Notes under the pieces: generated by a model | What the model was told of the DNA's origin: nothing | Seen by the model: only the letters and a program-made list of their open reading frames with translations | Database searches by the model: none | Program-made: the position numbers and the translations under genes | Shown here: positions 56,407-62,335 of the stretch, in pieces | Position numbering within the stretch: position 1 is the stretch's first letter | How the letters are laid out: each line of letters starts with the position of its first letter | Assembly: GCF_027023985.1 (NCBI RefSeq) | Contig: NZ_JALVTW010000011.1 | Span: forward strand, 1 to 64,000 | Length of the DNA: 64,000 nt | Direction: 5' to 3' | Source: Persephonella sp. | Lineage (GTDB): Bacteria; Aquificota; Aquificia; Aquificales; Hydrogenothermaceae

Positions 56407-57402
56407 ATGAAAGAGTTCATAGTAGATGCTTCAGATTACGACAAAACAATAATCACAACAGCAATTGAAAGTGGTGCTGATTATATCATTGTTCCGGAAG
56501 ACAAATTAAAAGAAGCCAAGAAGCTGGGAAGGGTTAATTTTATAACAATTGATAAAAATGGGAATTTGTCAGACGATTTTGTTCTTGTGGTTATAAATGA
56601 TAAAAAAGATGAAGAAAGGGCTGCCCAGCTGGCCAAATCAGGGAAAAAAGTCATAGTGAAAACAACAGACTGGACGATTATCCCTCTGGAGAACCTGATA
56701 GCCCAGTCAGAAAATATCTACGCAGTGGTAAAAAATGCAGATGAGGCAGGTATTGCCGTTGGAATACTGGAAAAAGGAGTTAAAGGCGTTGTCCTCGAAA
56801 CAAAAGACTTGAATGAGATTAAAAAAGTTGCCAATGTAATAAAAGAAACTACCGAAAAAATAGAACTGGTAAAAGCCAAAGTTACAGCAATTATTCCAGT
56901 TGGAATGGGGGATAGGGTTGCAGTTGATACCACCTCCCTGTTTAAAAGAGGGGAAGGTATGCTTGTCGGTAATTCTTCTGCAGGTATGATTTTTGTCCAT
57001 GCAGAAACAGAAGAAAGTCCTTATGTTGCATCAAGACCTTTTAGGGTTAATGCCGGTGCAGTGCATATGTATACCAGAGTTCCCGGTGGAAAAACTGTCT
57101 ATCTATGTGAACTGGAAGCAGGAAAAGAAGTTATGGCTTATGATATAGAAGGAAATGGAAGGGCTGTTGTTGTTGGAAGGGCAAAAATAGAAAGAAGACC
57201 TATGCTTCTTGTGGAAGCAGAGTATCAGGGTAAAAAACTGAGTGCTGTCCTGCAAAATGCTGAAACAATCAGACTGGTTAAAGGGGATGGTTCATTAGTA
57301 TCCGTTGTTGACCTTAAGGAAGGAGATGAAATTTTAGGATATGTAGAAGAAGCAGGCAGACACTTTGGTATGAAAGTAGAAGAAACAATTTTAGAAAAAT
57401 AA
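56407..57402 (+). CDS. 3-dehydroquinate synthase II (archaeal type)
   Basis: A 331-residue enzyme of the DHQ synthase II family (AroB'), which makes 3-dehydroquinate from amino-ketose precursors in place of the normal AroB route from DAHP. Recognised by VAVDTTSLFKRGEGMLVGNSSAGMIFVHAETEESPYVASRPFRVNAGAVHMYTRVPGGKTVYLCEL, a strongly conserved central block. It is soluble. The archaeal pathway needs an aldolase partner that is not in the window. The gene is 14 bp before the MCE gene; a functional link is unlikely. Confidence 0.88.
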   Translation: MKEFIVDASDYDKTIITTAIESGADYIIVPEDKLKEAKKLGRVNFITIDKNGNLSDDFVLVVINDKKDEERAAQLAKSGKKVIVKTTDWTIIPLENLIAQSENIYAVVKNADEAGIAVGILEKGVKGVVLETKDLNEIKKVANVIKETTEKIELVKAKVTAIIPVGMGDRVAVDTTSLFKRGEGMLVGNSSAGMIFVHAETEESPYVASRPFRVNAGAVHMYTRVPGGKTVYLCELEAGKEVMAYDIEGNGRAVVVGRAKIERRPMLLVEAEYQGKKLSAVLQNAETIRLVKGDGSLVSVVDLKEGDEILGYVEEAGRHFGMKVEETILEK

Positions 57403-57416
57403 TTTAAGGTGCTATT

Positions 57417-58967
57417 ATGAACACAGCCTTTAGGGTGGGGCTTTTTGTTTTAATTATTTCTGCTATAGCAGGTTATTTAATAATAACATTCAGTGGTAAA
57501 GAGTTCGGAGTGTCAACCAAGGAATATGTGATTTATTTTGATGCTGTTGAAGGATTATCTCAGGGAGCTGATGTTCAGGTAAAAGGTGTTAAAGTCGGTA
57601 GGGTAGAAAAGATAGAGTTTGATAAAGGAAAGATAAAGGTAACAATCGGTATCAGGAAAAGCATCCCCATTTATAAAAACGCTAAAGCCTATGTCCGAAC
57701 ACTTGGATTGATGGGAGATAAGTATATATACATAGACCCTGGGACTCCAGATGCCGGAGAGTTGGCGGAAGGAGGAGAGATTACAAACGCGCAGGTTTAT
57801 GCATCTACAGAAGAGGCTTTTGCATCTGTCCAGGATATAGCCAAAAAAATAGGGAAACTAGTGGATAATCTGAATGATGCCCTTGGAAATGGAAATCTTA
57901 AAGAAATGGTTGAAAATATTAAAATCCTTGCTAAACATGCTGACGAAATGGTGGTTGAAAATAGAAAAGGGGTTAAACAGGCAATAGACAATATAGTTGC
58001 CATTACCGATAGTCTTAGGAAAGAACTTCCACCACTTATTCAAAAAATAGACAGAATAGCAACAAATCTGGAATCTATAACAGGAGAAAACAGAGAAGAT
58101 ATCAGAGAGCTGATTAAAAATCTAAAAGAAACTTCAGTTGCTCTAAAAGAGAAAACACCAAAAGTTCTTGATGAAATTGGAGCGGCAGCAGAAACAATAA
58201 AAGGCACTGTTGGAGAAAACAGGGAGGATATAAAAGTCGCAATTAAAAAGATAAAAGAAGCCTCTGAAAAATTAGACAGAATTCTGGCAAAAATAGACGA
58301 AGGAAAAGGAACATTGGGAAAACTGGTTAATGATGATAGTCTTTATGAAAATGCAAACTCCGGAATTAAGGAGTTTGCAAAACCATTTGCAGTTGTAAAC
58401 AAATCTCAGCTTGATATTATGCTTTATGCGGAAAAGCACACAGGAAACGAGGATTCAAAAGCCGGAATAGCAGGAAAGTTTGCCCCAAGTAGTAATAGCT
58501 ATATATACGCAGGGCTTCTTACCAATAGCAATGGAACAGTCACAAAAAGGAAAGAATATACAGACAATTCAGGAACAAGAGAAGAAGTTGAAAGGAATTA
58601 TGGAATTCTGTTTGATGTCCAGTATGCCCACAGGCTTATTGATATATGGAAATCAAGCTTATGGATAAGAGGAGGTCTTAAAGACTCAACAGGTGCAGCA
58701 GGTGCAGACCTTTATTTAAATAGAAATCTGGTTGTAAAAGCAGACCTTTATAACTTTGACAGGAAATATCTAAAAAATAACAAGGATATTGATAATCCGC
58801 AACTGGATATTTATTTTCAATATAAGATGCCCAGTTATCCAATATTCGTTAGACTTGGAGGTTCTGACCTCCTGAATAGTGATGTAATGGGTATTTATAT
58901 TGGTGGTGGATTTATGTTCAGAGATAATGATATAAAATATTTACTGGGAAGTATGCCAAAACCTTAA
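57417..58967 (+). CDS. mlaD: MCE (MlaD-like) protein with coiled coil and barrel-like C-terminus
   Basis: A 516-residue lipid-transport protein. The N-terminal membrane helix (about 6-27) is followed by an MCE domain (about 36-115: YVIYFDAVEGLSQGADVQVKGVKVGRV). A long helical coiled coil spans about 125-320, with repeated GENREDI segments. Residues 330-516 are strand-rich and look like an outer-membrane barrel domain (IAGKFAPSSNSYIYAGLL; DLYLNRNLVVKADLYNF; GIYIGGGFMF). This is longer than E. coli MlaD (183 residues). Fused trans-envelope forms have been described in diderm Firmicutes. No mlaE/F genes are next to it. The barrel assignment is inferred. Confidence 0.85.
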   Translation: MNTAFRVGLFVLIISAIAGYLIITFSGKEFGVSTKEYVIYFDAVEGLSQGADVQVKGVKVGRVEKIEFDKGKIKVTIGIRKSIPIYKNAKAYVRTLGLMGDKYIYIDPGTPDAGELAEGGEITNAQVYASTEEAFASVQDIAKKIGKLVDNLNDALGNGNLKEMVENIKILAKHADEMVVENRKGVKQAIDNIVAITDSLRKELPPLIQKIDRIATNLESITGENREDIRELIKNLKETSVALKEKTPKVLDEIGAAAETIKGTVGENREDIKVAIKKIKEASEKLDRILAKIDEGKGTLGKLVNDDSLYENANSGIKEFAKPFAVVNKSQLDIMLYAEKHTGNEDSKAGIAGKFAPSSNSYIYAGLLTNSNGTVTKRKEYTDNSGTREEVERNYGILFDVQYAHRLIDIWKSSLWIRGGLKDSTGAAGADLYLNRNLVVKADLYNFDRKYLKNNKDIDNPQLDIYFQYKMPSYPIFVRLGGSDLLNSDVMGIYIGGGFMFRDNDIKYLLGSMPKP

Positions 58968-58982
58968 TAGAAGAGGATTTAA

Positions 58983-59666
58983 ATGGATAAAGAAAATTTT
59001 CTGAAAAATGTGCCACTGTTAGAAGGTATACCGGAAGAGGACTTAGCAGAGATATCAAAATATTTCCATTTAAAAGAGTATAAAAAGAATGAATATATAT
59101 TTTTTGAAGGGGATGAAGAACCGGGGATATACATTGTTATTGAAGGAATTGTAAAGCTAATAAAAGAAACAGCTGACGGAAAGACAGTTATTCTCAGGCT
59201 TGTTACACCTAAAGAGGTATTTGGCTGGCTTGTAGTTGGGGAGAGTAGACCAGAAAGCACATATACAGCTCAAGCGCTTGTAGATACAAAAGTTTTATAT
59301 ATATCAAACAAAGATTTTCTGAAACTTTTAAATCTTTATCCTGCCCTCGCAATTAAGATTACATGTGATGCAAGTAAAATGCTACTTGAAGCCTATGATA
59401 GGCTTAAAAGTCTTGCAGCAGAAAAGGTTGAAGGAAGAATTGCTAATCTGCTTTTAGAACTTTCCAAAAAAATAGGAAAAGAGGTTGATGGAAAAATAGT
59501 TATAGAAGCTCCTATAACCAGACAGGATATTGCAGAGATGACCGGAACTACAGTTGAAACAGCCATAAGAATAATGAGTAAATGGAAAAAAGAAGGAATA
59601 GTTAACACAGAAAGGGGAAAAATAGAGATACTAGACCCTGACTATCTGGAAGATTTGATTGCCTGA
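58983..59666 (+). CDS. Crp/Fnr-family transcription regulator
   Basis: A 227-residue regulator. The N-terminal cyclic-nucleotide-binding-like domain (KKNEYIFFEGDEEPGIYIVIEGIVKLIKETADGKTVILRLVTPKEVFGWLVVGES) has no cysteine cluster at the start, so it is not an oxygen-sensing FNR. The long C helix (about 115-145) and winged helix-turn-helix (ITRQDIAEMTGTTVETAIRIMSKWKKEGIV) follow. Ligand unknown. It lies 15 bp after the MCE gene and 108 bp before the TolC gene, where an inverted repeat is found, so it could control that efflux operon. Confidence 0.9.
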   Translation: MDKENFLKNVPLLEGIPEEDLAEISKYFHLKEYKKNEYIFFEGDEEPGIYIVIEGIVKLIKETADGKTVILRLVTPKEVFGWLVVGESRPESTYTAQALVDTKVLYISNKDFLKLLNLYPALAIKITCDASKMLLEAYDRLKSLAAEKVEGRIANLLLELSKKIGKEVDGKIVIEAPITRQDIAEMTGTTVETAIRIMSKWKKEGIVNTERGKIEILDPDYLEDLIA

Positions 59667-59774: not shown

Positions 59775-61169
59775 ATGAGGAGACTCGGTATATTACTTGC
59801 TCTCATTTCGGTTGTCATCACCGGATATGCAAAGGAATTAACCCTAAAAGAAGCAATAGATATTGCTCTTCAAAGAAACTATGAACTTAAAGCATCCCAG
59901 CGCCAGTTGAAAAGCAAAGAGCTTGAATATCTGGCAACAAAAGGTTTAAGATGGCCAACAATCACATTCAGTGAAATGTTTATGAGAACTAATATTCCTG
60001 GCTGGGCGATGATGAATGAGCTCAACCAGCACAGACTAACAATGATGAGTTCTTCAAAATATGTAGATATGACTTCAATGAATACTATGTTCGGTATGCC
60101 TATGTTTCAACCTCCGCATTATCCGGAATGGAACAACTGGCAAACAAAAATCCAGTTTCAACTTCCTATATGGGCAGGTGGAAAGATAGGAACCGGTATT
60201 CAGATGAGAGAAAAAGAGTTTCAGGCATCAAAATTTGATTTAGAAAGAACAAAACAGAAAGTTATTTATGATGTCACTAAAGCATATTACGGTGCTTTAC
60301 TTGCAAAGGAAGCTATAAAATTAGCAAAGCAAGCTTACAAAAGCATGGAAAAGCATTATAAAACTGCTGAAACAATGTATAACAACGGTCTTGCAATATA
60401 TGCAGATGTTCTCAGGGCTAAAGTTTATCTTTCAAAGGTAAAAAGCAAAATAACAGAAGCAGAAAATCAATATATGGTAGCTAAAAGAGGATTGTTACTT
60501 GCAATGGGAATAGATAACGAAGACCCGGGACAGATTGACGTGGTAGGTCAGCTTGAATTAAAAGAGCAACCAAAAGACCTTCAGTTCTGGGAAAAGGTTG
60601 CTATTTCTTCAAGACCAGACCTTATAGCCCTTAGAACAAGAGTTGAAAATGCAAAAAGATATGCAGCATTCCAAAAGGGAGATATGCTCCCAACAATTGG
60701 AGCATTTGGATATTATCAAATGGATGATAGATATTCTCCGTTTGGCACAGATGGAACAGGATTTACCCTTGGAATAGCTCTTAACTGGAAGATTTTTGAT
60801 GGTTTTCAGGCATATAACAGATACAGAGCTGCAAAGGAAACTTACAGAAAGTATGCAAACCTGAAAAAAGGTTTTGAGGAGTATATAAAATTCAGTGTGT
60901 ATAAAGCATACAAAGATTATATGACAGCATTGGATAGACTTAAAGCTGCAGAAGATAATGTCAAATATGCAGAAGAGGTTCTTAAAATTACAGAAAAAAG
61001 ATATAAAAATCAGCTTGCATCAATGATAGACCTGCTTGATACCCAAACAATGTATGACAAGATAAAATTTGAAAAGGCAAAGGCTACTTATGATGCGAAT
61101 ATATCCCTTCTGGAACTTAAATATCAGGCAGGCCAGTTAAAAAAAGAAAATAACGGAGGAGATAAATAA
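59775..61169 (+). CDS. TolC-family outer-membrane efflux protein
   Basis: A 464-residue outer-membrane channel. The signal peptide ends at GYA. The family pattern is seen in KELTLKEAIDIALQRNYELKASQRQLKSKELEY and in the second half (DPGQIDVVGQLELKEQPKDLQFWEKVAISSRPDLIALRTRVENAKRYA). A Met/Pro/Trp-rich insert (about 60-115) lies in the first part. Its strong RBS (GAGAGGTG) lies behind inverted repeats. Its last base overlaps the adaptor gene's ATG, so all three efflux genes are one operon. It differs strongly from the first TolC protein. Confidence 0.9.
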   Translation: MRRLGILLALISVVITGYAKELTLKEAIDIALQRNYELKASQRQLKSKELEYLATKGLRWPTITFSEMFMRTNIPGWAMMNELNQHRLTMMSSSKYVDMTSMNTMFGMPMFQPPHYPEWNNWQTKIQFQLPIWAGGKIGTGIQMREKEFQASKFDLERTKQKVIYDVTKAYYGALLAKEAIKLAKQAYKSMEKHYKTAETMYNNGLAIYADVLRAKVYLSKVKSKITEAENQYMVAKRGLLLAMGIDNEDPGQIDVVGQLELKEQPKDLQFWEKVAISSRPDLIALRTRVENAKRYAAFQKGDMLPTIGAFGYYQMDDRYSPFGTDGTGFTLGIALNWKIFDGFQAYNRYRAAKETYRKYANLKKGFEEYIKFSVYKAYKDYMTALDRLKAAEDNVKYAEEVLKITEKRYKNQLASMIDLLDTQTMYDKIKFEKAKATYDANISLLELKYQAGQLKKENNGGDK

Positions 61170-62335
61170 TGAAAAGCGTAGTCAAATTTGTGGTGTTTTT
61201 CGTTATACCTATTACTATTTTCATCCTCTGGCTTGGGGGCTTCCTTACACCAAGAGTTGAGCCTGGATATGCAGAAGAAGAAGCTAAAAAGGTGGTTCAG
61301 GTTCCAACAATGGTTGTCCAGCCACAGGAAGTTGGACAGGTATATCAGGTTGATGGTTCGGTGATATCCAATAACACAGCAAAAGTTGCAACAAAACTGA
61401 TGGCAAAAATCCTCAAAATAAATGTTAAAGAAGGAGATTTTGTTAAGAAAGGACAATTATTAGCAGTTTTAGATGATAGTGAGATTAATCAAAATATAAA
61501 AGAAGCCTATGCAGGACTTGAAGAGCTTTCTAAAGCAAGGGAAGAAGCAAAAGCAGGTCTAAAGGCTGCACAGGCTGGATACGAGTTTGCAAAAAGAACC
61601 TATGAAAGATTTAAAAATCTGTATAAAGAAAATGCAGTTTCAAAACAACAATTTGAAGAGATTGAAACAAAAATGATAGGTGCAAAGGCACAGGTTGATG
61701 CCATTAAAGCAAAGCTAAAACAACTTGATGCAAAGGAAAAACAGGTAAGGGCAAAACTTAAATATGCACAAATTATGAAAGGTTATGCTTATGTTAAAGC
61801 ACCATTTGATGGTGTGATTATCAAAAAGATGAATGATGTTGGAGATATGGCAGCTCCCGGAATGCCAATATTTATCATTGGAGATAAAAATCTAAAATTC
61901 ATGTCTATGATAGATGAAAGCCTTATAAACAAAGTAAATATTGGAGATGAGATCACAGTTTCAGTGGAAACTATAGGAAAAACTTATAAAGCAAAAGTTG
62001 TGGAAAAAAGCAATAGTGTTGACCCTATGAACAGGACATTCACTATAAAAGCAGAACTTCCCCATGACCCAGATTTAAAGCCCGGAATGTATGGAAAGGT
62101 AAAAATACCTGTTTCAAAAGAAGAAAAAATTCTTATACCAAAAACAGCAGTATTCCATTGGGGACAGCTTGATGCCGTTTACAAAGTAGATAAAGATGGC
62201 ATTGCACATATAGCTTTCGTAAAGCTTGGAGAAGAAATAGATGGAAAAGTGGAAGTTATTTCTGGATTAAAACCCGGTGATGTTATTGTTGCAAGTGAAG
62301 TTGATAAAGCTTGTGAAGGTTGCAAAGTTCGTTAA
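61169..62335 (+). CDS. RND efflux periplasmic adaptor (AcrA/MexA family)
   Basis: A 388-residue membrane-fusion protein with an N-terminal anchor (about 5-25), not a cleavable signal. Lipoyl halves lie near TKLMAKILKINVKEGDFVKKGQLLAVLDDSE and YAYVKAPFDGVIIKKMNDVGDMAAPG, flanking a coiled-coil hairpin (about 110-195). The C-terminus has beta-barrel strands and two cysteines (KACEGCKVR). It connects the TolC and RND pump of the same operon. It follows the TolC gene with a one-base overlap and is 26 bp from the pump gene. Confidence 0.9.
   Translation: MKSVVKFVVFFVIPITIFILWLGGFLTPRVEPGYAEEEAKKVVQVPTMVVQPQEVGQVYQVDGSVISNNTAKVATKLMAKILKINVKEGDFVKKGQLLAVLDDSEINQNIKEAYAGLEELSKAREEAKAGLKAAQAGYEFAKRTYERFKNLYKENAVSKQQFEEIETKMIGAKAQVDAIKAKLKQLDAKEKQVRAKLKYAQIMKGYAYVKAPFDGVIIKKMNDVGDMAAPGMPIFIIGDKNLKFMSMIDESLINKVNIGDEITVSVETIGKTYKAKVVEKSNSVDPMNRTFTIKAELPHDPDLKPGMYGKVKIPVSKEEKILIPKTAVFHWGQLDAVYKVDKDGIAHIAFVKLGEEIDGKVEVISGLKPGDVIVASEVDKACEGCKVR

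Follow-up and report, generated by a model that had tools for sequence, protein, structure and literature searches.

A long MlaD with a predicted outer-membrane-type barrel in Persephonella, and a putative MlaEFD system found in most Aquificota

Does a 516-residue MCE protein of Persephonella span the envelope, and if so with which partners? The question is raised by an open reading frame in the window, the stretch of 64,000 nucleotides analysed here. The initial annotation had proposed a possible one-piece lipid bridge, consisting of an inner-membrane start, an MCE ring domain, a long coiled coil of about 200 residues with GENREDI repeats and a strand-rich, barrel-like C-terminus, and had suggested that this design is old or widespread. 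The closest homologue of the protein is 87% identical over its full length and is encoded in a metagenome-assembled genome of Persephonella, a genus of Aquificota. The features of the locus, all on the forward strand, are as follows.

56407..57402, + strand: 3-dehydroquinate synthase II, upstream neighbour outside the system (PF01959, E 2.7e-127)
57417..58964, + strand: mlaD, long form, 516 aa (open reading frame and translation; ATG start, stop codon at 58965-58967)
57435..57491, + strand: N-terminal inner-membrane helix, residues 7-25 (VGLFVLIISAIAGYLIITF; top Kyte-Doolittle 19-mer, 2.5)
57516..57743, + strand: MCE/MlaD domain, residues 34-109 (PF02470, E 2.1e-21; whole-genome match at the same coordinates)
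57789..58400, + strand: long amphipathic helical region, about residues 125-328 (AlphaFold2 helices 125-320 and 299-329; hydrophobic period)
58407..58919, + strand: predicted outer-membrane-type beta-barrel domain, residues 331-501 (AlphaFold2, Foldseek, strand alternation)
58536..58598, + strand: charged beta-hairpin, strands 374-383 and 386-394 (lowest mean strand hydrophobicity, weak alternation)
58923..58949, + strand: short C-terminal helix, residues 503-511, with a KYLLG-like motif (AlphaFold2; motif conserved in the alignment)
58983..59666, + strand: Crp/Fnr-type regulator, downstream neighbour (PF00027, PF13545)

The mlaD gene is packed closely between its two neighbours (56407-59666), and 14 bases separate it from the end of the 3-dehydroquinate synthase II gene. 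In two relatives mlaD is flanked by open reading frames whose lengths match those of the flanking genes in the window. The Crp/Fnr-type regulator is treated here as a neighbour and is not counted among the components of the MlaEFD system. Farther downstream (59775-62335) lie genes for a TolC-type outer-membrane factor and an HlyD-type adaptor, a pair that looks like part of an efflux pump. Scans for promoters and terminators gave nothing above shuffled sequences.

The N-terminal half of the protein agrees with the initial annotation. No other 19-mer of the protein is as hydrophobic as residues 7-25, in keeping with an inner-membrane start, and the MCE domain that follows scored 76.4 bits against the PF02470 cut-off of 25.1. 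The model for E. coli-type MlaD (TIGR04430, the OM_asym_MlaD equivalog) gave 85.5 bits, below its curated cut-off of 135; judged by these profiles, the protein is related to E. coli-type MlaD but not of that type. The family profile matched the mycobacterial Mce1 chain 8fed_B over positions 5-283, which covers the MCE and helical regions (E 4e-31), and also E. coli-type MlaD 6zy2 (E 1.7e-17).

The long helix after a single MCE domain is present, as in the long MlaD proteins of the type described by Grasekamp et al. Given the full-length sequence by itself, AlphaFold2 produced a model of low quality (pLDDT 43) whose C-terminus was unusable; only its helices are relied on here. In the mean hydrophobicity of 44 homologues a period of 3.60 residues stood out sharply: its power was 193, whereas periods of 3.5 and 3.667 gave 22 and 14. 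The phase hardly drifted between residues 150 and 290. When the window protein was analysed by itself, its peak was higher than that of any of 500 shuffles. Because the period is 3.60 instead of the 3.5 of a heptad, and because its phase is nearly steady, this region is better named a straight amphipathic helix, and the initial annotation is corrected to this extent: the helix is not a classical heptad coiled coil. Its hydrophobic stripe, which keeps a straight course for about 140 residues (about 21 nm in helical form), would suit a tube of parallel helices. The repeats were borne out in part: an ENR motif recurs at residues 180, 223 and 266 with an exact spacing of 43 residues, but GENREDI itself occurs in only two copies. 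Weak hits of the helix in Pfam, NCBIfam and the PDB (apolipoproteins, ZorA, designed bundles) were ascribed to amphipathic-helix composition and set aside.

For the C-terminal domain, AlphaFold2 was run on residues 296-516 with 42 Aquificota homologues (mean pLDDT 83, pTM 0.73). The model has twelve strands within residues 331-501, followed by the helix 503-511, and is barrel-like. The best 50 Foldseek matches in the PDB were all membrane beta-barrels, natural or designed, mostly with probabilities >0.8; their E-values were at least 0.002, and their query-normalised TM-scores low to moderate (0.17-0.42). With strand limits taken from the AlphaFold2 model, the odd-even hydrophobicity difference of the strands averaged 1.25, compared with 0.68 ± 0.15 for shuffled columns, and none of 5000 shuffles was as high. 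Outer-membrane barrels also made up most of the named matches to this domain in the viral library. Pfam gave no named family for the domain, OMP_b-brl matching weakly in 3 of the 42 members (best E 0.0044), and a search of PDB sequences with the domain profile stayed empty up to E 10. Two strands, 374-383 and 386-394, are charged and weakly alternating, so they probably form a hairpin that extends the neighbouring strands outside the membrane; about ten membrane strands would then remain. The model thus supports an outer-membrane-type beta-barrel, the structure foreseen by the initial annotation, and not the soluble or non-barrel fold that would have spoken against it. Given TM-scores of 0.17-0.42 and no PDB match with an E-value <0.001, closure and strand register are predicted at most.

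The search for a permease and an ATPase elsewhere in the genome, which the initial annotation had recommended, found both. The source genome (1.90 Mb, 99.97% complete) encodes one MCE protein, and the C-terminal domain occurs in the 516-residue MlaD only. The MlaE permease is present in a single copy on contig C17 (E 2e-77, above the TIGR00056 cut-off). An MlaF-like ATPase on contig C33 is 40% identical to E. coli MlaF; MlaF (PRK11831) is its best NCBIfam model, with a score under the curated cut-off, and its assignment means the best match among ABC ATPases. The second-best ATPase match, LptB on contig C15, scored above the LptB cut-off and was rejected as the partner. Since mlaD, mlaE and mlaF are each on a separate contig, the pairing of their products rests on the single copies of MlaD and MlaE and on synteny in relatives. 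MlaA and MlaC profiles found nothing in any of the 136 Aquificota genomes, while the E. coli and Caulobacter controls were positive.

Matches to MlaD were obtained in 125 of the 136 Aquificota genomes and in all 30 genera, and matches to MlaE in 126 genomes. The profile of the barrel domain was also found in 125 of the 136 genomes, including 84 of the 88 good ones, and in 29 of the 30 genera, the exception being the divergent genus g23. A C-terminus conserved across the phylum is no chance feature of one open reading frame. In two genomes of family f5, which belongs to the same class as the source genome and lies outside its order, the genes run mlaE-mlaF-mlaD(long) in an operon with overlapping ends. 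By coordinates, MlaE lies just upstream of MlaD in other f5 genomes, while in families f2 and f3, and in the family of the source genome itself, the gene for barrel-type MlaD is not next to its mlaE. Where the operon is intact, then, MlaEF is encoded together with the barrel-bearing MlaD. As judged from gene content, trans-envelope MlaEFD appears nearly universal in Aquificota, its operon kept in f5 and broken up in others. A tblastn search of plasmids found MCE proteins; among the 15 matches listed, the alignments went no farther than about residue 331 and none extended over the barrel.

All these parts have a precedent. MlaD of Veillonella parvula combines a membrane helix at the N-terminus with a single MCE domain, a long helix and a ten-stranded barrel, and its barrel construct was found in outer-membrane fractions; its partners are MlaE and MlaF, without MlaA or MlaC (Grasekamp et al., 2023; PMC10665443). 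In the same paper, 103 MlaD sequences from across the diderm phyla were predicted to carry a barrel, and the long-MlaD form of MlaEFD was put forward as ancestral and widespread. That Persephonella MlaD belongs to this architecture, already described in other bacteria (PMC10665443), is well supported. That the design is old or widespread, as the initial annotation suggested, is therefore not a new idea. There are differences: V. parvula MlaD has 419 residues and a helix of about 150, compared with 516 and about 200 in Persephonella, and the charged hairpin is a feature of the Persephonella barrel domain. The V. parvula genes form one operon with tolC and tamB, tolC adjoining mlaD, whereas in the source genome mlaD, mlaE and mlaF are scattered and the TolC-type gene lies downstream in the likely efflux pair.

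Other MCE systems share less. E. coli MlaD (PDB 6zy2, 6xbd) has the membrane helix and the MCE domain, but is 183 residues long, lacks the long helix and the barrel, and works with MlaA, MlaB and MlaC. Mycobacterial Mce1A-F (PDB 8fed) likewise has MCE domains followed by a long helical tunnel, but is made of six different chains, each giving one strand to a small shared barrel (PMC10665443). E. coli PqiB and LetB are also MCE proteins that bridge the periplasm, but each chain contains several MCE domains and lacks an outer-membrane barrel; their inner-membrane partners, PqiA and LetA, have no ATPase domain (PMC12436622).

In our judgement the long trans-envelope MlaD probably acts with MlaE and MlaF in a three-part lipid ABC system without MlaA and MlaC. 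This reading builds on the domains, the candidate partners, the operon linkage in relatives, the conservation and the barrel-like model obtained here, and takes the hexamer, the tunnel, the location of the barrel, the substrate and the direction by analogy from characterised relatives. In the inner membrane, an MlaE2F2 transporter would carry a hexameric ring made by the N-terminal helix and MCE domain. The straight amphipathic helices of the six chains would stand side by side, their hydrophobic stripes facing inward, and so enclose a tunnel through the periplasm. This tunnel would be held at the outer membrane by the C-terminal barrels inserted there. The term 'one-piece' is thus right for the chain but not for the assembled bridge, in which the protein would presumably be one of six subunits.

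It has to be counted against this scheme that six barrels round one tunnel form a geometry that nobody has seen, and a hexameric ring of barrels was considered unlikely by Grasekamp et al. (PMC10665443). Compatible with the three-part system, and indeed a variant of it, is the reading that the barrel only fastens the protein to the outer membrane and that lipids enter or leave the helical tunnel at the inner leaflet, bypassing any barrel lumen. A single barrel was judged too narrow for phospholipids and an anchoring role was left open (PMC10665443), and the Persephonella domain, with about ten membrane strands, is in the same size class; a larger barrel fused from several chains is nevertheless possible, and we hold the anchor-only variant to be evenly poised between true and false. 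Another reading, six complete barrels round one tunnel or merged into one large pore as a continuous conduit from inner to outer membrane, seems clearly unlikely; if true, it would be a conduit of a kind unseen in any structure and kept in nearly all Aquificota.

A rival reading makes the C-terminus a soluble or periplasmic strand-rich domain, bound to a separate partner protein of the outer membrane in the manner of PqiB and PqiC. The low to moderate TM-scores would suit such a domain; the uniformly membrane-barrel character of the best 50 PDB matches, strand alternation far beyond that of shuffles, the viral-library matches and the even strand count with both termini on the same side, which fits an outer-membrane barrel, make it highly improbable. 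The direction of Mla transport has been debated in other bacteria. A tunnel has no inherent direction, and export could be considered for the Persephonella system as well. V. parvula MlaEFD, however, behaves as a retrograde system that is genetically opposed to TamB (PMC10665443), and a TamB protein, encoded in the source genome, could serve the anterograde route; a direction other than retrograde is thus rather unlikely.

If the three-part reading is correct, trans-envelope MlaEFD is near-universal core equipment of Aquificota, a phylum that is not named in the main text of Grasekamp et al. (PMC10665443). Added here are this near-universality, the scattered partners, the intact f5 operon and the 3.60-residue stripe. 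MlaF was identified in that survey only in synteny with other mla genes (PMC10665443), and when MlaF is accepted only beside such genes, a scattered MlaF would tend to be missed. Aquificota proteins are heat-stable and therefore a practical source for structure determination, and a structure could settle how the barrels fit with a hexameric tunnel, left open by Grasekamp et al.

Several Aquificota depart from the common pattern. A second MCE operon is present in some genomes (L066, G030; similar coordinates in G001, G007, G031-G034, G098, G100 and G104); in G030 its products are an MlaE much lengthened at the N-terminus (327 aa), an MlaF and a short, barrel-less MCE protein (305 aa). At L048 (G001:C1:331000-333150) the barrel-type mlaD is split over two reading frames, by a frameshift or a sequencing error. 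The MCE protein of L053 (G113, family f4) is very divergent, with about 452 aa and 24% identity to the window protein; its C-terminus falls outside the barrel profile, yet looks strand-rich, and its last residue is phenylalanine. In the f5 genome G131 (C2:203736-213938), MlaE and barrel-type MlaD matches occur in two copies with identical scores, about 7 kb apart.
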